Assembly: GCA_947630285.1 (NCBI GenBank)
Contig: CANRHD010000008.1
Coordinates: 1 to 64,000, forward strand
Origin: an uncultured Clostridia bacterium
GTDB taxonomy: Bacteria > Bacillota > Clostridia > Oscillospirales > Acutalibacteraceae
DNA length: 64,000 nucleotides
Reading direction: 5' to 3'
Position numbers and translations under genes: made by a program. The notes beneath the pieces are model-generated. The model was not told where the DNA came from. It did not search any database and was given only the letters and a program-made list of their open reading frames with translations. This document shows, piece by piece, positions 356 through 56,493 of this stretch; within the stretch, counting starts at the first letter, position 1, and the number at the start of each line of letters is the position of its first letter.

Positions 356-3300
356 TTATTTAGTCTGAGCAACCTGAGTACCGCCGGAAGATGCAGTCTT
401 AATAGCGCCATAGTCTGTGACATCTATAAGGCCGTCACCTGAGGTGTCGCCGGCAGTTTCATAGACATTGAGGAGTGTGTCGAGACGGTTCATGTGTTTA
501 TCAACACCGAAGGTATCAAATCCGTCTACAGCACCGTCGCCGTTTACATCGCCATAGATTATAACGAAGTACTTGGCAACCTCAACATCACCGTCAGTAA
601 GCTTGACTGTTACAGTCGCACCAGTACCGAACATACCGTATTCGTTGGTCTTGCCCTCGATCTTAGTGCCGGGGGTCTTGCACTCAACTTTTGCGAGAAG
701 GTCGTCGATGGAGTCCATTGAACCGGGTGTGATACCCTGAATGAACCTGACATCCTGCTTAACCTGCTCAACAGCGTTTGCATCGGTAGACTCGATTGCA
801 ACATCAATCTTAAAGTTCTTGATAGCGTCACGAAGCTTCTCGGCAGCAGCGTCAACGGCTTTCTTATTCTTAACCGTGTTAAGCCTGTCATAGGCCTGGA
901 AAGTGATAGCCGATCTGCTGTAAAGTATGCCGGTGTATTCCTCGTCGCCGCCTGCAAGATTTGTAGCTACTTTGTCCACAGAACCTTCGCCCGTAGCGTT
1001 GTAAGCAACGCCGAGAGCTTCAAGAAGCTGTGCGAAAGCCTCTGCCTCGTCTTTGCTTTCATCGGCAAGCTGATACAATGAACCGTAACAGTCAATGATG
1101 TTGTTAGCCTGCGAGATGACTGCATTGAGCTCGAAATCAAGATAGCCGTTTTCCTTCATTGATTTTTCTTTCTCAAGAAGTTCGTTCTGCGCTACCATGA
1201 GTTCGTACTTAGCATCGAAGACTTCAGCCTCCGATTGGGACTTAAGCGCTTCCTGCGCAGCAGCAAGAGCCGCTGTGTAGCGTGCCCATGAATCCTTTGA
1301 ATACTTAGACTCATCATACTTCTGGTTAGTTGCATATGTGATTTCTTTTGTAAGGAAATCAGTATCAGCAGTCTTAGCGTTAGCTTTCATGAAGTCATAG
1401 TAATACTGGAGCTGGGCTTCCTGGTCATAGATCTCAAGGTCTGTATGCGTTGCAGGAACATAGTTTTCAAGCTCTTGGGCGTAAGCGTCCATATCGGGCT
1501 GAACAAGAGTCTTCTCGATAGCCGCCTTAACCTTTTCAGAATTTTTACCTGTTACTGCATTTTCAACAGCCTTGATAGTCTCATATGACGCGCCGTCGTT
1601 CTCAATATAAGCCTTGGGTTCTGCCGGAGGTGTAGCTGACTTAATCATGTTACGGGCCGCTGTTCTCTGTGCTTCATACTTGAAGTACTCGAAGAGCTTG
1701 TAGTCCTGATAGTTAATGTCTCTATTCGGGTCAGTCTCAAGAGAATTAAGCTTATTGGCTACAGTTTCAACCGTAACATCAGATGTAGCTCTCTTAAACT
1801 CGTTCAATGCCACGTAAGCTTCTTCAAGAGCCTGGATAGCAGGTTCTATCTGAGACTGTACGGTTTCAACATAGTCAGTTCTCTTTGCCACACCTGCGAG
1901 TTTAACTACCTTTTCCAAAGCCTGTTCGTAGGTTTCAAACGCAGAAGCTGCGCTCGGCTCGTAGTCAGAAGCCCTGAGGTTGAGGCCAACATACTCATTC
2001 GCTACATTGGCTATGTTAGAGTCGTTGTAGTAAATGAAGTCAACTTCGTAGTCTTTACCGGAATTACGGTATTTGATAGTGGTCATACCCATATCATAAA
2101 CGCCGTATTGAGCTTCCGCAGCAAAGCTTTCGGCAGTTACGCCGGCCTTTGCCCTGTAAAGACGACCTGTTGAGGACGATACCTGACCGTCTTTCGGGTT
2201 CTTATAAACGGTTACGAAGCCTGCTTCTCCAACCTTGTCGATATGCTCGAAATACTTGGCGGCTTCGCCGGAAATCGCTTTACCGTTAGTACCGATTGAA
2301 GCAGGATCTCTGCTACTAGGATCAAAAATAGTTCCTGCACCCTTATACGAAACAGTGGCTGTGTAGTTAGTAATTGTGTCAAAAGCGTCTTCTGTAAACT
2401 CGTACTTCTTGTACTTGTTGTTAACTGTGTAGTCCTTATCAACTTCGCCGGCCTCTTCATTGAGCTGGTCGGTTACATCGGATACATAAGCGTAAGCAAC
2501 CTTTGTACGTTCACCGCCGAGGTCTTTACCGTTCTTGCCGTTGAACTTATAGGTGATGGTAGCCTTGAAGGTACCTTCGCCGGCAACGGTAAGCGGAATG
2601 TCAGCCGTTTCACCGGGATTGACCTTAACCGGGAACTGAGCGGTCGTAGAAACGCCGTTTGTAAGCTCAACATTGGAAATGGTGATAGTATACGCACTGT
2701 CCTCTGTAGAAGAGTTCCTGTGTGTAAGAAGCATACCACTTGATGAGTTATACACTCTCAATTTCGGGTTGTTGGTTGAATGTTGATAAGTTGAACCCCA
2801 GTCATTTGTAATATAAGCAGTGGGCTCTTCGTACTTCTGCGGATCTACAGTCCAACCGATGAAGAAATTGGCTATAGGAAGTACAGTGTCGAGGAGACCG
2901 TTGTTATAAAGTGCGCCGAGGCTCTGAACAAGCTTTTTAACTACGGCTACAATGTTCTTGTGGGCGGTTTTTGCACCATCAATTTTAAGAAGTGAATCCA
3001 CAGAATTGATTGTGTTTGTATCAATAAGAGCACCGCCTGCAACCTTGCTTGTAATGCCGTTGAGAAGGCCTACTACGACCTTAACAAGGTTATCGGCAAT
3101 GTGATCCTGTGTAAATACGCCGTCCGGAATCTTGAGCATGCCCAAAAGCTTAGGTACATCAAGACCTGTGATTGCATCAACAAGGCCGCCCTTGAGGATC
3201 TTCTCAAGGAATGAATCTGAGCCGTAAGTACATGTAAGACCCGAGTCATTAAGAAGCTGGTTAAACGGAAGAAGCTTAAGAAGAATGGTATCAAGCTTAT

Positions 3301-5659
3301 TGAACGGGTTTTCATAAGAAGCGAGAGCTACCGTAGAACCGCAGTCAATAATATTGCTAAACTTCCATGTCCACTCGGTTTCAGTAGAGAGAGCCCAGTC
3401 GATAATCCAGTCAACCATGCGAAGCCATGATGCATTTTCCGGAGTCTCTGCGCCAATATACTGAGAGTTGGCCTTGAAAGTCATACCATCCGCTGTGTCT
3501 TCGGGAAGTGCGCCCATGGTCTTCATTACGCCGTAGTAGCCGTTAGCAGCGTCGTCTTCGCCCAAATCGGCAAGGTTACGGAGATAATAAACACCGAGGT
3601 TTACTCCCATATAAATTACTGTGTCAAGCCAGTAATTTGAATCTTTACCGGCGAGCATCGTTCTGTTTTCAGCCGTATAATCCGTATAAATCATAGCGTC
3701 GAAATCGTAAGTAGGCATAAGCTGTGTGCAAAGCTCACGAACTACTACCGCTCCGATAGCAAGCATAGGCTGATCGATGATGTCGTCGGAGAACTTAATC
3801 TGCGGCATTATGAGCTTAACAAGCTCGCAGATAAGTCCGTTGACAGCCTGTTCAGTCGTGCCGTTCATCATCTTGTCATAGAACTGAGCGTCCATGTAAT
3901 ACTCGTCAAGAATTTCCTCGGGAGCGAGAGCAAATACAGCCCTTGCGCCTTTCTTGATATTCTCGATAAGCTTGCTGTTGTCGCCCTTTGTCCAATTAAA
4001 GACTTCGTCACGCTTAACAGTCTTGCCTTTAACTTCCCACTCGCTGTTGATGAACAACTGAATGAGGTCATAAACGAAATCGTTAAGACCGCCGAGGATT
4101 GTGTTGTAACCTGCCTTGGAGGTACCGCCGACAGAGGTCGGGATATACTTATCCATAAAGCCGGTTGCAGGAATCTTATAATCCCAGTTGATCATGTTGT
4201 AGAAGGCAGAGATATTATTCGGGATTTCACCTACAAAGAAATCGTCCTGATACCTGTAGTAAGGTACGCCTTTGATTACTTTATAATCTGTGTACTCCCA
4301 GGTGTAATATTTCTGATCGCTTGTGAAGAAGTTGTCTGGGTTACCTGTTGATGAGACAAGCGCCTGAACTTCAGGGCTGCCTTTCTTACCAACCTTGGTA
4401 AAGGTTACATCAAATGCGCTTGCGATAGCCTTTTTAACAGAACCATTAAGAACTGTGGGAGCCATCTCGTTGAAAATATACGGAATGAACTTGTAAAGAA
4501 GTCCGGCTAAGGAATCTTTTCCGTTAATTTCAAGGGTAAGAGCGCCGCTGTCAAAGGCAGATTTAACTGAGGGAAGCCAATACGATGACTGAATGTTACC
4601 GTTAAGGTCGGTTTTGCCGTCAGCCTTATACCATTTAAGTGTCTGGTCGCCGTTATAGCCCTCGGGAGCTACATATAAATATGTACCCGAACCCTCGTAC
4701 TCTTCGGTTTCCGACTTGGTATAGGTAACTGTTTCTTTGAAGCCTGCTTCTTCCTTACCGAGCGCACTCTTGTAATTGTAGTCATACTGCGTTATGGTGT
4801 TGTCACCGATAACGAAGTACCTTGTTGTATCCTCCGGAGTGGTCGGAAGAGCTGCTGTGTAGCCAAGATCACTGCCGTCTGCGCCGACTCTGTATGAGGT
4901 CCAGCTCATGGGCTTTGTGAACAAGCCGTTTACAAAACTCTGTGCGGTTGTCATAAGGTCGGACTCGACATTGCCGAGAACAGTTCTCTGGTCGGCTTTG
5001 TCGTCGGGCCTTGAGAACAACGGCAATACAAAAGCGTTGATCATCTTGGGAAGGTCAACAATAAGCTTGTTGATACCGGAAAGGTCAAGACCCGTAATGA
5101 AGTTCTTGATCATACCAAGCTCGAGGCCGTTTGTGAAAACGGTGTCAATTACGGCGCCGTTGTCATCAAGAGTGTCCAAGATACCCTGGACTATCCTGAG
5201 CTGGTCGGTATTTTCCCTCGACATGCCGCTGTATGTGTTGTTCCAAGTTTTAAGGTTGACTTCTTCAACAATACCGAGATTAACAATACCCTTAGCGATT
5301 GAGCCGATAGTGCTTGTAAGCAAGCTTGCGGCGCTGTCTAAGGTCTTGCATATCTCGTTTACCGATGTAAGGTTAACATAGAGCTGAATCTTTGTAATCA
5401 AAAGGTTTACATTGACAAGGTAGCCCATATTAAGACTTGTCATCGGGGCAAGGAGATTGTCAAGCGAGTCAAACAGGATTGACATTCTCTCTTCTGTTGA
5501 AAGTCTTGTAACAGTACCGTAAGGTGAATAGGCTTGCAAGTCTTTCAAGTTCTGTACTGTCTGATAACTTGCCTTTGCAGCAGATGCACCAACAGATACA
5601 CTTGAGAAAATCATGAGCACTGTTAAGAGTACACTTAACAGCTTCATTGACTTTTTCAT
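356..5659 (-). CDS. Very large exported protein with C-terminal dockerin-like module
   Basis: 1767 aa; signal peptide MKKSMKLLSVLLTVLMIFSSVSVGASA; C-terminus has two Ca-binding-like repeats GDVNGDGAVDGFDTFGVDKHM and GDTSGDGLIDVTDYGAIKTA typical of type I dockerins. Confidence 0.85.
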   Translation of the reverse strand: MKKSMKLLSVLLTVLMIFSSVSVGASAAKASYQTVQNLKDLQAYSPYGTVTRLSTEERMSILFDSLDNLLAPMTSLNMGYLVNVNLLITKIQLYVNLTSVNEICKTLDSAASLLTSTIGSIAKGIVNLGIVEEVNLKTWNNTYSGMSRENTDQLRIVQGILDTLDDNGAVIDTVFTNGLELGMIKNFITGLDLSGINKLIVDLPKMINAFVLPLFSRPDDKADQRTVLGNVESDLMTTAQSFVNGLFTKPMSWTSYRVGADGSDLGYTAALPTTPEDTTRYFVIGDNTITQYDYNYKSALGKEEAGFKETVTYTKSETEEYEGSGTYLYVAPEGYNGDQTLKWYKADGKTDLNGNIQSSYWLPSVKSAFDSGALTLEINGKDSLAGLLYKFIPYIFNEMAPTVLNGSVKKAIASAFDVTFTKVGKKGSPEVQALVSSTGNPDNFFTSDQKYYTWEYTDYKVIKGVPYYRYQDDFFVGEIPNNISAFYNMINWDYKIPATGFMDKYIPTSVGGTSKAGYNTILGGLNDFVYDLIQLFINSEWEVKGKTVKRDEVFNWTKGDNSKLIENIKKGARAVFALAPEEILDEYYMDAQFYDKMMNGTTEQAVNGLICELVKLIMPQIKFSDDIIDQPMLAIGAVVVRELCTQLMPTYDFDAMIYTDYTAENRTMLAGKDSNYWLDTVIYMGVNLGVYYLRNLADLGEDDAANGYYGVMKTMGALPEDTADGMTFKANSQYIGAETPENASWLRMVDWIIDWALSTETEWTWKFSNIIDCGSTVALASYENPFNKLDTILLKLLPFNQLLNDSGLTCTYGSDSFLEKILKGGLVDAITGLDVPKLLGMLKIPDGVFTQDHIADNLVKVVVGLLNGITSKVAGGALIDTNTINSVDSLLKIDGAKTAHKNIVAVVKKLVQSLGALYNNGLLDTVLPIANFFIGWTVDPQKYEEPTAYITNDWGSTYQHSTNNPKLRVYNSSSGMLLTHRNSSTEDSAYTITISNVELTNGVSTTAQFPVKVNPGETADIPLTVAGEGTFKATITYKFNGKNGKDLGGERTKVAYAYVSDVTDQLNEEAGEVDKDYTVNNKYKKYEFTEDAFDTITNYTATVSYKGAGTIFDPSSRDPASIGTNGKAISGEAAKYFEHIDKVGEAGFVTVYKNPKDGQVSSSTGRLYRAKAGVTAESFAAEAQYGVYDMGMTTIKYRNSGKDYEVDFIYYNDSNIANVANEYVGLNLRASDYEPSAASAFETYEQALEKVVKLAGVAKRTDYVETVQSQIEPAIQALEEAYVALNEFKRATSDVTVETVANKLNSLETDPNRDINYQDYKLFEYFKYEAQRTAARNMIKSATPPAEPKAYIENDGASYETIKAVENAVTGKNSEKVKAAIEKTLVQPDMDAYAQELENYVPATHTDLEIYDQEAQLQYYYDFMKANAKTADTDFLTKEITYATNQKYDESKYSKDSWARYTAALAAAQEALKSQSEAEVFDAKYELMVAQNELLEKEKSMKENGYLDFELNAVISQANNIIDCYGSLYQLADESKDEAEAFAQLLEALGVAYNATGEGSVDKVATNLAGGDEEYTGILYSRSAITFQAYDRLNTVKNKKAVDAAAEKLRDAIKNFKIDVAIESTDANAVEQVKQDVRFIQGITPGSMDSIDDLLAKVECKTPGTKIEGKTNEYGMFGTGATVTVKLTDGDVEVAKYFVIIYGDVNGDGAVDGFDTFGVDKHMNRLDTLLNVYETAGDTSGDGLIDVTDYGAIKTASSGGTQVAQTK

Positions 5660-5960: not shown

Positions 5961-6521
5961 GTTTGACAAATGCGGCTAAAAATTTAGTCACTTCGCCCTA
6001 TAACACCATTCCTATGGTTACTGTAATTATAAAATTTTCTCTCAAAAAAGTCAATAATTCATTCACACTTTTTTACCGTTTTTATAGTTTTCACAAATAT
6101 TTTTGTGATTTTTGGGCAAAATGAGCAAATAATTTTGTCAATTTTTAAATAAAATTATGAACAAACTGTTAATATTTTAAATATAGCCATTTTTTAGTCA
6201 GAGTTTTGAACATTTTTAATAAATTTTATAGTTTTTTACGGGTTTTGAACATTTTTTTGACATTTTCTATATATTGTTTTTTTGTTTATTTTTAATCAAA
6301 ATATTGTGTATGGTGAAATTTTTGCCATTTTTTTGGCTTTGCGCAGGGTTGCGGCGAGTCGGAGGGTGCGAACCTTGAAAATTGAACATGATATATCAGG
6401 TAAACAGCCGGTGAGAGGTTTTTCCTGCGCTTTTTGAAAATTGTTTTCCTCCTGCTTTTTTTGAAAATGATTTTCCTGCGCTATTTGAAAATGGTTTTCC
6501 TCATACACTTTTTTGAATATA

Positions 6522-6650
6522 GAATTTCGCAGTCTGCGGACTGCGACGGGGGCGTTGCCCCTCGGCCCTTACCCTTTTGTCCGCTGCGCAGACATTTCCC
6601 CTGACAGGGGAATTTTCTTTTTGAAAAAAGACGGACAAAAACTTTGAATG
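6522..6650 (-). repeat. Modular intergenic repeat, copy F (partial, reverse)
   Basis: CGCAGTCTGCGGACTGCG..GGGGGCGTTGCCCCTCG..GTCCGCTGCGCAGACATTTCCCCTGACAGGGGAA..CTTTTTGAAAAAAGACGGACAAAAACTTT. Confidence 0.85.
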
Positions 6651-18075: not shown

Positions 18076-18357
18076 TTCAGCCTGTCGATAAACTGTTTTG
18101 CGATAGCAAAATGTCCAAAAGTTTTCGCCCGAATTTCCGAAAAATTAAGGGAACCCCCGGCGAGGGTTCCCCTCCGTCAAACAGTCCCCCGGACTGTTTG
18201 ACGCCCCTCCTGCGCTTTTTGAAGTATAAGTTTTTCGCAGTCTGCGGACTGCGCCGGGGGCGTTGCCCCTCGACCCTTACCCTTTTGTCCGCTGCGCAGA
18301 CATTTCCCCTGGCAGGGGAATCTTCTTTTTGAAAAAAGACGGACAAAAACTTTTAAT
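18076..18357 (-). repeat. Modular intergenic repeat, copy A (chimeric orientation)
   Basis: TTCAGCCTGTCGATAAACTG head in + orientation followed by the remaining modules in reverse. Confidence 0.88.
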
Positions 18358-25154: not shown

Positions 25155-25414
25155 CAGCCTGTCGATAAACTGTTTTGCGATAGCAAAATATCCAAAGTTT
25201 TCGGCCGCCTTTTACAAAAGGCGGTGGGGTCGAGGGGCAAAGCCCCCGGCGCAGTCCGCAGACTGCGAAACACCTGTGCTTCAAAAAGCGCAGGAGGGGC
25301 GAAAAACAGTCCGGTGGACTGTTTTTCGGTGGGGAATCCTCGCCGGGGGTTCACCATAATCTTATTCCTTTTGTGCATATTGCCAAGTGAAACATACTCT
25401 TTCTGCATACTGAA
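25153..25414 (+). repeat. Modular intergenic repeat, copy B (full length, about 262 bp)
   Basis: TTCAGCCTGTCGATAAACTG..ATACTGAA with internal hairpin modules. Confidence 0.9.
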
Positions 25415-34290: not shown

Positions 34291-34460
34291 TCAGCCTGTC
34301 GATAAACTGTTTTGCAATAGCAAAATGTTCAAAAGTTTTTGTCCGTCTTTTTTCAAAAAGAAGATTCCCCTGCCAGGGGAAATGTCTGCGAAGCAGACAA
34401 AAGGGTAAGGGTCGAGGGGCAAAGCCCCCGGCGCAGTCCGCAGACTGCGAAAAACTTACG
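34291..34460 (+). repeat. Modular intergenic repeat, copy C (3' truncated)
   Basis: TCAGCCTGTCGATAAACTGTTTTGCAATAGCAAAATG..CGCAGTCCGCAGACTGCGAAAAACTTACGCTT. Confidence 0.88.
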
Positions 34461-34461
34461 C

Positions 34462-35403
34462 TTATTCTTCGTCATTTTTAACTTCAACCTTGCCGTAAAG
34501 GGAAGCGGAAGAGTAATCGCTCCTCTTTTCACGGTTTTCCGAAATTTCCGGAACATAGGCTTCCCTCTTGGGTCTTCTGTCCCTTGAGCCTCTGCCCCTG
34601 TCCTTATAGCCGTAGTTTCCCTTTCCGCCGTTTTCGGGAGCAATTATAACCCGTCTGTCAAGGTCCTCCCCGGTTGAATATGAAGTTGCGCCCTTGATTT
34701 CCTGAACCGCCGTGTGGATTATTCTTCTCTCGTAGGGGTTCATAGGTTCAAGCGCAACGCTTCTGCCTGTTTTAACCGCACGGACAGCGGTTCTTTTTGC
34801 AAGGTTTTCCAAAACGGCAACTCTTTTTTCACGGTAATTGCCGACATTGATGAACACCCTTTTAAAGCCTGCGCCGCCCTTGTTTGCGGACATTCTTGCA
34901 AGATACTGTATAGCGTCGAGCGTTTCGCCCCTTCTGCCGATTACTATGCCGTAATCCTCGCCGCACTCAAGCTCAAAATAAATTTCCTCGTCGTCGGCAA
35001 GAACCTTTATATCGCACTGCTCTATACCGAGGCCCAAAATAATTGACTTGATGTAATCCGCCGTATCGTTATATTCGTCGGTCGGCTTTAAGGAGTCTCT
35101 CTTTTCCTCGGGCGCAACGGCCTTTACTTCCCTCGGCGCTCTGTTCTCTGCGGTTTTTGCGGATTTTTTGCCGTTTTCCCTTTCGCCCTTAGCCTTTTCT
35201 TCTTTTACGGGTTTTTCGTCGGGAATTTCAACTGTAACCTTTACCTGAGCCGGAGAGCCGCCGAAAAGGCCGAATTTCTTTTTCTCCGGAACTTTCAAAA
35301 CCTCAAGATTATAAAGATCCATTTCGGTAAGGCCCAACTCAAGCAGAGCCGCATTTTTTGCTTCCTCGATGGTAGAAGCTGTTTTAATACTTTCTTTAAT
35401 CAT
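34462..35403 (-). CDS. jag: Jag/KhpB RNA-binding protein
   Basis: Jag_N KFGLFGGSPAQVKVTV, KH GIVIGRRGETLDAIQYL, R3H NPYERRIIHTAVQEIKGATSYSTG. Confidence 0.92.
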   Translation of the reverse strand: MIKESIKTASTIEEAKNAALLELGLTEMDLYNLEVLKVPEKKKFGLFGGSPAQVKVTVEIPDEKPVKEEKAKGERENGKKSAKTAENRAPREVKAVAPEEKRDSLKPTDEYNDTADYIKSIILGLGIEQCDIKVLADDEEIYFELECGEDYGIVIGRRGETLDAIQYLARMSANKGGAGFKRVFINVGNYREKRVAVLENLAKRTAVRAVKTGRSVALEPMNPYERRIIHTAVQEIKGATSYSTGEDLDRRVIIAPENGGKGNYGYKDRGRGSRDRRPKREAYVPEISENREKRSDYSSASLYGKVEVKNDEE

Positions 35404-37110: not shown

Positions 37111-37501
37111 CACGCTACCTCCGTTTCATTACAAAAATAATCTGCGGAAAGATATTATATACTAAAAACACTTAAAAAGTCAAGATTTTTCACAATTTTA
37201 AGGGCTTTTTAATTTTTCAACTATTTATAGTGAAAAAAATTTTTTTAAAACAAAATATAGTGCATTTTTTCTTTTATTTTTAAAATTTTAAGTAAATTTA
37301 TTTAAAAAATTTTTTCTTTAAGTATTTAAAAATTTTAAAATTTGAATTTTTTATGGTTTAAGTCTGCTTTTTGCAGGCTGATTTTATTTATATATAATAA
37401 ATAACTATAATAGTTAATATTTTACCTTATATTTCGTCGAACAATAAAATGCGGTCGAAAACCTTAAATGTTGTTATTGTGAAAATTAGTACAAGATTGC
37501 A

Positions 37502-37666
37502 GGGGAACCCCCGGCGAGGGTTCCCCTCCGTCAAACAGTTCACTGAACTGTTTGGCGCCCCTCCTGCGCTTTTTGAAGCGCAAGAATTTCGCAGTCTGCG
37601 GACTGCGCCGGGGGCTTTGCCCCTCGACCCCACCGTCTTTTTGAAAAAAGACGGACAAAAACTTTT
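37502..37666 (-). repeat. Modular intergenic repeat, copy D (partial, reverse), inside the oriC region
   Basis: GGGGAACCCCCGGCGAGGGTTCCCC..AAACAGTTCACTGAACTGTTT..CGCAGTCTGCGGACTGCG..GACGGACAAAAACTTTT. Confidence 0.88.
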
Positions 37667-37854: not shown

Positions 37855-37929
37855 AAATAATTTTAAATTTTTATATTAAATATGCCTTTTTATACACCGT
37901 TTAATTTTTTGTGAGATTGGAGTGTTTTT

Positions 37930-39249
37930 ATGGAATCGCTTAATGATATGTGGAAAGCGGTTTGCGCCTATGCGAGGGAAAACCTTAATGTAAGCGACAG
38001 CGCTTTCAGATTATGGTTTGAGCCCATTTCTTTAAAATCCTTTGACGGTCAAAAAGCAATTCTTTCGGTATCAAACGAATTTCTTTTTCCTTTAATAGTT
38101 AACAGATATACGGAAACCATAAACACCGCTTTTAAAGAGGTATTGGGCTTTGAGGTTGAAATTGAATTTATTTACGAGCAGTTAAAGGACGGGGAATTTG
38201 AACAAAATTCCGAAAACTCGCAGGTTTCCGAAAGAACCTTGGGCGACAACTTTGAAAACTTCGTTGTCGGCAAGTCGAACAATTATGCCTATGCCGCCGC
38301 AAAGAAAGTTGCGGAAGATCCCGGAAAATCATATAATCCGCTCTATATTTACGGAAAATCGGGTCTGGGTAAAACTCATCTTTTAAAGGCTATCGAAAAC
38401 GAGATGAAAAAAAGAAATCCCGGGTCGTATATAATTTACACCACAAGCGAAAATTTTACAAACGATTTAATTTATCACATCAGAAACAAGACTACATATG
38501 AATTTCACGAAAAATACAGAACCGCAGACGCCCTTTTAATGGACGATATTCAGTTTATCGCAAAAAAGGAACAGACGGAGGAGGAATTTTTCCACACCTT
38601 CAATGCTTTGACCGAATACGGGCGGCAGATTGTTCTGACCTCGGACAGGCCGCCCAACGAAATTCAAATTTTGCAGGAAAGGCTGAAAACAAGATTTGAA
38701 TGGGGTTTAATGGCAGATATTCAGCCGCCGGACTTTGAAACAAGAATGGCAATTATTAAAAACAAAGCAGAGCAATTTGAACTTGAGCTTGACAACGAAA
38801 TTATAGAATTTTTTGCTTCGGAGCTTAAAAACAATGTACGCCAGCTTGAAAGCGCAGTAATAAAAATTAAATCGCTCTGCTCGCTTGTAAACGCTTCGCC
38901 GTCTCTTGAGCTTGCAAAAAAAGCTATTAAGGAGCTTACCAACAACAGCCAGCCGGTTACCGTAATAAATTCAAAAATTATAGACAACATCGCAAATACC
39001 TTCGGAATATCGGCAGAAAATATTATGTCGGAAAAAAGAGACAAAAATATTAAAGACGCAAGACAGGTCGCAATGTATATTATGAGGGAGATTACGGGTC
39101 TTTCTCTGGTGGAAATAGGAAACTATTTCGGCGGCAAACAACACTCGACCGTAAAACATTCCATTGATATGACGAGAAAAAAAATGGACGAGGATTTTCT
39201 TTTCAGAAAAACGGTTGAAGATATTATAAAAAATGTTCAGGAGTATTAA
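37930..39249 (+). CDS. dnaA: Chromosomal replication initiator DnaA
   Basis: AAA+ Walker A IYGKSGLGKTHLLKAIENE, domain IV SLVEIGNYFGGKQHSTVKHSIDMTRKK. Confidence 0.97.
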   Translation: MESLNDMWKAVCAYARENLNVSDSAFRLWFEPISLKSFDGQKAILSVSNEFLFPLIVNRYTETINTAFKEVLGFEVEIEFIYEQLKDGEFEQNSENSQVSERTLGDNFENFVVGKSNNYAYAAAKKVAEDPGKSYNPLYIYGKSGLGKTHLLKAIENEMKKRNPGSYIIYTTSENFTNDLIYHIRNKTTYEFHEKYRTADALLMDDIQFIAKKEQTEEEFFHTFNALTEYGRQIVLTSDRPPNEIQILQERLKTRFEWGLMADIQPPDFETRMAIIKNKAEQFELELDNEIIEFFASELKNNVRQLESAVIKIKSLCSLVNASPSLELAKKAIKELTNNSQPVTVINSKIIDNIANTFGISAENIMSEKRDKNIKDARQVAMYIMREITGLSLVEIGNYFGGKQHSTVKHSIDMTRKKMDEDFLFRKTVEDIIKNVQEY

Positions 39250-39256
39250 AAAAGTT

Positions 39257-39423
39257 TTAGACAAGTTTTTGTTTTAAACATTCGGGTTTTGAACAGTTAA
39301 AAACTGTCTTAAAATTTATGTTTAAAATATTTACTTTTTGAACAATTATTAGACGGTTTAATTTTTCGGTTTTCCCTTTTATTTAAACGGTTTAAGCGGG
39401 ATTTAAACAATTTCGTAAACGCC
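39257..39423 (+). promoter_or_regulatory. Array of TTRRACRRT-like 9-mers, candidate non-canonical DnaA boxes
   Basis: TTAGACAAG 39257, TTAAACATT 39274, TTGAACAGT 39289, TTGAACAAT 39338, TTAGACGGT 39349, TTAAACGGT 39383, TTAAACAAT 39403, GTAAACGCC 39415 (weak); all on the same strand. Confidence 0.55.
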
Positions 39424-39478
39424 TAATACTAATGCTTAATTAATTTATATTTATTTATTTTTTTGAAAGGAAAAAAAT

Positions 39479-40579
39479 ATGAAATTTATCTGTGACACTC
39501 AAAAATTTGCTGAAATATGTTCAAATGTCCAAAGGGCGGTATCAAGCAAGTCAACGATACCTGCAATAGAGGGTATTTTGCTTACCACCACCGAAAACAC
39601 AATAACCGTAACGGGCTATGACCTTGAGGTCGGCGTTATAACCTCAATCGGCGCAAGGGTAGAGGAGCAGGGAAGCATTATTTTAAATGCAAAGGTACTC
39701 TGCGATATTTTAAGAAGTCTTCCGGCGCAGACGGTAAGGGTTGAGGCCGATGAAAGAATGTCAACTACGATAAAGAGCGGCGACGCCGAATTTTCGCTTA
39801 TCGGAATAAGCGCACAGGAATATCCCGAGCTTCCGTCCGTAAACAGCAGCTTCCCTATAGTTGTAAAGGGCGAAATATTAAAGGATATGATAAGGAAAAC
39901 GATTTTTGCCGCCGCCGAAAACGATACCAAAGTGGTACACACGGGCGTAAGGTTTGAGATAGGTGAAAATTCAATAAGACTTGTTGCGGTTGACGGCTTC
40001 AGGCTTGCAATAAGAAACGAAGCTATTGACTATCAGGGCGAGGAGCAGATTTTTGTAGTTCCCAAAAAAGCTCTCAACGAGGTTATAAAGCTTATTACGG
40101 ACGACGAAGTATCGGTTTCGCTCAATATAGGAAAAAGGCATATAGTTTTTGAGATAGGCAATTATATTTTGGTTTCAAGACTGCTTGACGGCGAATTTTT
40201 GAATTATAAATCCGCCATCGCCATAAACGAAACTGCGGTGGTAGAAGTAAATACAAGAATGCTGATAAGCAGTATCGAAAGAACTTCTCTGATTATTACC
40301 GACAGGGCAAAAAGTCCTATAAAATGTATATTTGACAGCGATTTTATAAAAATTTCATCTACAACTTCCCTGGGAAGCGCAAACGATAAAATACCGGCAA
40401 AAATTCAGGGAAATAAAATTGAAATCGGTTTTAACAACAGATTTTTGCTCGACGCTTTAAAGGTTTGCGATACCGACGAGGTAATTATTAAACTCGGAAG
40501 TCCCGTTCTTCCCATAATAATTGTACCGAAACAGGGCGATAATTTCTTATTCCTTGTTCTGCCCGTTAAGTTAAAATGA
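39479..40579 (+). CDS. dnaN: DNA polymerase III beta sliding clamp
   Basis: MKFICDTQKFAEICSNVQRAVSSKSTIPAIEGILL... Confidence 0.96.
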   Translation: MKFICDTQKFAEICSNVQRAVSSKSTIPAIEGILLTTTENTITVTGYDLEVGVITSIGARVEEQGSIILNAKVLCDILRSLPAQTVRVEADERMSTTIKSGDAEFSLIGISAQEYPELPSVNSSFPIVVKGEILKDMIRKTIFAAAENDTKVVHTGVRFEIGENSIRLVAVDGFRLAIRNEAIDYQGEEQIFVVPKKALNEVIKLITDDEVSVSLNIGKRHIVFEIGNYILVSRLLDGEFLNYKSAIAINETAVVEVNTRMLISSIERTSLIITDRAKSPIKCIFDSDFIKISSTTSLGSANDKIPAKIQGNKIEIGFNNRFLLDALKVCDTDEVIIKLGSPVLPIIIVPKQGDNFLFLVLPVKLK

Positions 40580-56239: not shown

Positions 56240-56493
56240 TTCAGCCTGTCGATAAACTGTTTTGCGAAGCAAAATGTCAAAAGTTTTCGGCCGCCTTTTT
56301 CAAAAGGCGGTGAGGTCGAGGGGCAAAGCCCCCGTCGCAGTCCGCAGACTGCGAAATTCTTGTGCCTAAGGCGAGGGGCGCAAAACAGTCCGGTGGACTG
56401 TTTTGCGGTGGGGAACCCACGCATGGGGTTCACCATAATCTTACTACTTTAGTGCATATTGCAAAGCGATACATACTTTTTCTACACACTGAA
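56240..56493 (+). repeat. Modular intergenic repeat, copy E (full length, about 254 bp)
   Basis: TTCAGCCTGTCGATAAACTG..CACACTGAA; colinear with copy B. Confidence 0.9.

Follow-up and report, generated by a model that had tools for sequence, protein, structure and literature searches.

Predicted altered DnaA boxes beside dnaA in an uncultured Clostridia bacterium and their covariation with DnaA residue 433 in its family

Introduction

Which box does the replication initiator DnaA recognise in a bacterium whose DNA-binding domain departs from the usual sequence? This question is raised by a stretch of 64,000 nucleotides from an uncultured Clostridia bacterium (contig CANRHD010000008.1; this whole stretch is referred to as the window), in which the gap between dnaA and dnaN carries an array of repeated 9-mers. 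An earlier note on this DNA had proposed that protein and origin changed together towards a new box, TTRRACRRT. Here the locus is analysed in detail and compared with the dnaA loci of its relatives.

DnaA protein and recognition helix

The dnaA gene (37930-39249, plus strand) encodes an initiator of 439 aa, in which domains I, III and IV were recognised. The Pfam models DnaA_N, Bac_DnaA and Bac_DnaA_C (PF11638, PF00308 and PF08299) and TIGR00362 (464 bits) scored above their cut-offs, and dnaN lies downstream, which places the protein in the DnaA family. Alignment to the E. coli DnaA-DNA structure 1J1V confirmed the four substitutions described before, P423V, R432K, D433Q and T435S (E. coli numbering throughout), and revealed L438K as a further change. 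Pattern match and the same alignment located the codons of the recognition helix start, G431-K432-Q433-H434-S435-T436-V437-K438-H439, at 39133-39159 on the plus strand, including those of Gln433 (39139-39141) and Lys438 (39154-39156). R399, H434, T436 and H439 are unchanged with respect to E. coli. The E. coli-type set of base contacts (R399, P423, R432, D433, H434, T435, L438 and H439) is thus incomplete, with R399, H434 and H439 kept and V423, K432, Q433, S435 and K438 differing. The changed contact residues bear on box specificity, not on membership of the DnaA family.

Among 399 sampled genomes of the phylum, no dnaA besides that of the window encodes Lys or Gln at residue 433 in a GG-[KR] context. 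A pattern search of 397 genomes of the order found GKxHSTVKH-type helices only in genus g1; genera g63 and g86 have a helix of this type as well.

Box array in the dnaA-dnaN gap

The gap between dnaA and dnaN, an ORF for a sliding clamp of 366 aa (39479-40579, plus strand), is 229 bp long with 22% G+C. All seven 9-mers listed in the earlier note are present there, five as exact TTRRACRRT (39289, 39338, 39349, 39383 and 39403) and two with one base off (39257 and 39274), and TTAAACGGT was found on the minus strand at 37896. A pattern search of both the rpmH-dnaA and the dnaA-dnaN gap confirmed that neither contains TTATCCACA. In 5000 first-order and 5000 second-order Markov sequences of the gap, exact TTRRACRRT occurred with means of 0.11 and 0.27, and no sequence reached five. 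The third-order model gave a mean of 2.4 and at least five matches in 424 of 5000 sequences, which is less telling because this model largely absorbs the repeats and retains the motif itself. According to genome-wide pattern counts, TTRRACRRT is present 244 times in 2.03 Mb and its backwards-pattern control 248 times; the motif is therefore not enriched globally, and the enrichment is local to the gap, where it is about 180-fold denser than genome-wide. Neither is it equally dense in other AT-rich DNA, where 229-bp stretches of the window hold at most two matches to TTTTRRACA, the corrected form of the motif.

This correction concerns the register, in which the earlier reading did not hold. 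DNA alignment with relatives of the same genus, whose DnaA proteins are 46-92% identical, gave G-TTTT-NR-ACA as the conserved unit. The unit TTTTRRACA starts 2 bp upstream of TTRRACRRT, whose final RRT varies among relatives, and the TTRRACRRT register was abandoned because its 3' part is not conserved. In the corrected register the boxes of the window read TTTT-RR-ACA, with positions 3, 5 and 6 departing from TTATCCACA. The frame TTxTxxACA of the canonical TTWTNCACA is kept, with five exact matches in the gap counting both strands, and purines replace the central CC of TTATCCACA. C6 and the CACA end of the canonical box are missing, position 6 being A or G in all exact boxes of the window. 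Since the frame is kept, the unit is a modified version of the 9-mer and not an entirely new box.

Five predicted DnaA boxes match exactly: TTTTAGACA (39255-39263, plus strand), in an alignment block that part of the genus has conserved; TTTTAAACA (39272-39280, plus strand) and TTTTGAACA (39287-39295, plus strand), both in conserved blocks; a second TTTTAAACA on the minus strand (39319-39327), common to locus L002; and a second, partly conserved TTTTGAACA (39336-39344, plus strand). Two weak box-like sites on the plus strand, TATTAGACG (39347-39355) and ATTTAAACG (39381-39389), have two mismatches each and are doubtful. The last predicted box, ATTTAAACA (39401-39409, plus strand), has one mismatch and is the counterpart of B. 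subtilis box 6. The other genome with a KQHS-type DnaA (L002) has boxes of the same kind and lacks TTATCCACA, in keeping with an altered box. The search for related loci returned one relative, an uncultured Clostridia MAG.

Two more close TTTTGAACA pairs are located within about 35 kb of the origin, one at 6204-6262 of the window and one 0.8 kb past it (contig C8:64790-64810). Box pairs at most 40 bp apart occur 12 times in the genome versus once for the backwards control. The two additional TTTTGAACA pairs are possible DnaA-titrating or regulatory clusters. Six places of the window hold all or part of a dispersed repeat, about 170 bp long, palindromic and GC-rich (6521-6645, 18149-18353, 25194-25355, 34332-34463, 37496-37665 and 56280-56434), one copy lying between rpmH and dnaA. 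Related copies are present in other genera (loci L025, L044, L155 and L158); in L008, L009 and L025 they lie in a lengthened dnaA-dnaN gap. Elsewhere in the window, a reading frame of 1767 aa (356-5659, minus strand), known as ORF only, starts like a signal peptide and resembles a dockerin in a C-terminal stretch (DVNGDGAVDGFD).

Origin anatomy

Next to the last predicted box lies a 13-bp spacer, ATTTCGTAAACGC (39410-39422, plus strand), within which a second box position is degenerate (ATTTCGTAA; relatives have, for example, ATTTAGACA). It is followed by the DnaA-trio CTA-ATA-CTA-ATG-CTT (39423-39437, plus strand), of the 3'-GAT-5' type on the other strand, and by an AT-rich stretch (39438-39469) that, from its sequence, is probably the unwinding region. 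The gap thus shows the arrangement of a basal unwinding system (BUS), in which at least three DnaA-trios follow a box at a distance of about 10-13 bp. The box-spacer-trio order, with the same trio layout, was found in most dnaA-dnaN gaps of the family. CTACTACT or CTAATACT was among the most enriched 8-mers of the family gaps, so that the trio was recovered without an assumed frame. The cumulative GC skew has its minimum at 36-38 kb and its sign switches at dnaA. Because the array adjoins a DnaA-trio and an AT-rich stretch, the gap is very probably the origin, and judging from this anatomy it would be the working one. Location, trio and family comparison also support the view of the earlier note that the repeats form a DnaA-box array at oriC departing from TTATCCACA.

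The order and orientation of these elements are the same as in the dnaA-dnaN gap of B. subtilis, whose basal unwinding system consists of boxes 6/7 and the trio (PMC8287927, PMC10721633), and the spacer falls within the published box-trio peak of 10-13 bp (PMC8287927). In contrast to B. subtilis, the boxes of the window are TTTTRRACA and not TTATCCACA-like, and the second box on the trio side is degenerate. With a box array, a trio-proximal box, a short spacer, a trio and AT-rich DNA, the gap would work in a similar way: domain IV would bind the boxes and load an ATP-DnaA oligomer, which would then capture the trio strand and open the duplex.

Covariation of residue 433 and the boxes

For the family comparison, 183 distinct dnaA loci were used, covering the window's genus, about 100 other genera of the same family and more species in selected genera; dnaN as blastp query located dnaN downstream of dnaA in the relatives. 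Residue 433, reported elsewhere as a highly conserved Asp, is polymorphic in these loci, and it covaries with box positions 5 and 6 across the family. Loci with Asp433 have TTTTC(A/C)ACA boxes, those with Asn433 have TTTTC(A/G)ACA, and those with Thr, Gln, Lys or Ser have TTTT(G/A)AACA. Scanning both strands for TTWTNNACA boxes gave purine to pyrimidine counts at position 5 of 39:179 for Asp, 6:34 for His and 24:92 for Asn, and of 42:26 for Thr, 10:0 for Gln, 110:32 for Lys and 7:0 for Ser. When genus-by-residue units were compared, purines formed the majority in all eight Thr/Gln/Lys/Ser units versus 3 of the 73 Asp/Asn/His units (Fisher p = 5e-9), and the Asn units alone (1 of 10) differed as well from Thr/Gln/Lys/Ser (p = 4e-4). 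At position 6, 80 C and 7 G were counted with Asp or His, and 6 C and 26 G with Asn (Asp/His versus the rest at unit level, p = 1e-6).

The same three consensus boxes were recovered by unbiased, frame-free 8-mer enrichment, which returned TTTCAACA and TTTCCACA for Asp, TTTCAACA and TTTCGACA for Asn, and TTTGAACA and TTTAAACA for Thr/Gln/Lys/Ser. The canonical TTATCCACA is absent from the dnaA-dnaN gaps of all 50 Thr/Gln/Lys/Ser loci. A reversed scaffold was tried as negative control and rejected as not neutral, since it runs across the ACA-AG-TTTT junction between adjacent boxes.

The proposal that protein and origin changed together therefore stands as far as residue 433 is concerned, and falls for the original box register and for the roles assigned to P423V, R432K and T435S. 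In a scan of domain IV columns for association with the boxes, column 433 came first of the top columns by deviance per degree of freedom (12.5, against 6.8 for the runner-up) and second by raw deviance (75, after 81 for column 443 with its 15 residue types), and columns 423, 432 and 435 ranked 16th, 66th and 103rd. Ser435 is the rule in the family, also beside boxes with C at position 5 (C5); Lys432 also occurs with Asp433, beside C5 boxes; and residue 423 is variable, again also beside C5 boxes. As these states coexist with C5 boxes, residue 433 is left, out of the four residues held responsible in the earlier note, as the covarying contact residue.

His434 is another conserved box-contacting residue of DnaA. 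Several genera of the family have Tyr in its place (RHYS, KNYS and RNYS types; loci L065, L071, L082, L083, L087, L091, L097, L101, L110 and L140), and the boxes of these genera keep C5.

History of the switches

On a tree built from DnaA with domain IV removed, lineages switch into the Thr/Gln/Lys/Ser group about five to six times, several times beside Asn sisters with C5. Ser genus g37 is placed beside Asn genus g9, Lys genera g63 and g86 beside an Asn genome of g60, Lys genus g70 beside Asn genus g43, and Lys genus g48 together with basal Asn members. The boxes on the Asn side of these switches have mostly C5, or are too few to tell. With only 4-6 independent pairs, the pair tests are below the reach of significance, and deep branches are weakly supported; recurrence of the paired change is thus suggestive, not proven, as a series of independent events. 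On balance, we lean towards residue 433 being a specificity switch, which about five times would have passed from Asp, apparently via Asn, to Lys, Thr, Ser or Gln, with box positions 5 and 6 shifting in the same direction each time. Such a history would have produced a set of altered pairs of initiator and origin, and with them a natural code from residue to base for a bacterial initiator that is highly conserved.

Proposed recognition mechanism and alternative explanations

In the reading that we consider likely, the gap forms the unwinding half of oriC, and its altered boxes are read through a recognition code with residue 433 at its centre. Located where the recognition helix starts, the carboxylate of Asp433 would accept hydrogen bonds from the amino groups of C5, C6 and A7, and would disfavour purine acceptors at those bases. 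Asn433 would take the charge away, and Thr, Gln, Lys or Ser would then allow or favour G or A at position 5. Published E. coli data (PMC8235120) assign D433 and L438 to base pair 7 instead of 5-6, and A7 is invariant in the boxes of the family, which counts against a direct contact of residue 433 with bases 5-6. We infer from the sequences a direct contact, a binding preference and an origin function, the contact being possibly shared or shifted across positions 5-7.

Loss of Asp433 could instead simply drop the preference for C at positions 5-6, leaving the boxes to drift with local AT-richness. Thr433 genomes do keep C5 and T5 in part (strict-frame counts at position 5: A 23, G 24, C 7, T 9), and one Thr433 subclade of the window's genus (9 genomes) has mixed boxes (19:22). 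Nonetheless, G is at least as frequent as A at position 5 although A is about twice as common as G in the gaps (0.34 and 0.16 on the plus strand), and AT drift would yield A and T alike, unlike the strict-frame counts of Lys/Ser genomes (G 48, A 25, C 2, T 3). Such relaxation may explain Thr433 in part and is unlikely for Lys/Ser; as a general account we give it a small chance. Slightly better, though still improbable, is the idea that another change in domain IV, for example at 438 or at the flanking residues 442-443, sets the preference and residue 433 merely travels along. Lys438 accompanies Gln, Thr or Lys433 in g1, g63 and g86, the same E. coli data have D433 and L438 acting at one base pair (PMC8235120), and column 443 is strongly associated with the boxes. 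Lys438 was rejected as the cause, however, since purine boxes occur without it in g48 (Ile/Leu438), g37 (His438) and g70 (Ile438), and column 438 ranks 17th in the scan; the deviance per degree of freedom of column 443 is low because of its many residue types.

That the repeats bind another origin-acting regulator such as Spo0A, and not DnaA, appears very improbable. Spo0A is encoded in all 12 genomes tested, and the Asn-class box TTTTCGACA in reverse contains TGTCGAA, which we take to be the 0A box of Spo0A. The boxes of the window in reverse (TGTTCAAAA, TGTTTAAAA and TGTCTAAAA) are nevertheless without a TGNCGAA core, and a Spo0A site would have no reason to lie at a fixed distance from the DnaA-trio and to vary with residue 433. 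Chance repetition in AT-rich DNA, which the third-order shuffles alone would allow, has a next to negligible probability given the lower-order shuffles, the comparable AT-rich stretches described above and the box blocks conserved among relatives.

In the Asn433 gaps of L020-L030 and L142-L147, TTTTCGACA holds the reversed TGTCGAA, and the tested genomes have spo0A; at these origins the sites of DnaA and Spo0A may therefore coincide.

Comparison with known DnaA boxes

Canonical boxes (TTATCCACA/TTWTNCACA) with Asp433, as in E. coli, B. subtilis and C. difficile (PMC5742627, PMC7561715), have the frame, Arg399, His434, Thr436 and His439 in common with the window, which differs in having purines for C5C6, Gln for Asp433 and Lys for Leu438. 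The earlier note had pointed to Thermotoga as precedent. Similar to the window, the T. maritima system combines divergent contact residues with a divergent box (AAACCTACCACC/ACCTACCAC; PMC10316083), but this box has another core and was a 12-mer in the original description, whereas the window keeps the canonical 9-mer frame. The ACCTACCAC core is absent from the enriched 8-mers and from the gap. Closer to the window is a box proposed for mollicutes, TT(T/A)TCAACA (PMC3322544), which shares T3 and A6 with the Asp433 members of the family; their TTTTCAACA is already known as a proposed mollicute box. Position 5 of the mollicute box is C, in contrast to G or A in the window, where Asp433 is lost. 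Epsilonproteobacterial boxes (TCATTCACA type; PMC5043019, PMC4285127) likewise combine a lineage-specific change at position 5 with proposed changes in the recognition helix, although there position 5 is T, Asp433 is kept and the changes are proposed at 435, 438 and 439. According to a review of 2015 (PMC4285127), all analysed nine-mer origin boxes outside Thermotoga stay within two mismatches of TTATCCACA; TTTTGAACA and TTTTAAACA have three. Among the best-ranked matches of our literature searches, no earlier report of TTTTGAACA as a DnaA box was found.

Implications

Origin finders that use TTATCCACA with at most two mismatches would miss most such boxes or score them poorly. The altered pairs would be ready-made material for tests of DnaA specificity and for orthogonal origins. 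DnaA and its box are thought to be slow to change because many boxes must change along with the protein. A conserved contact residue that was repeatedly replaced in this family, together with matching boxes, would show how an essential protein-DNA contact evolves.
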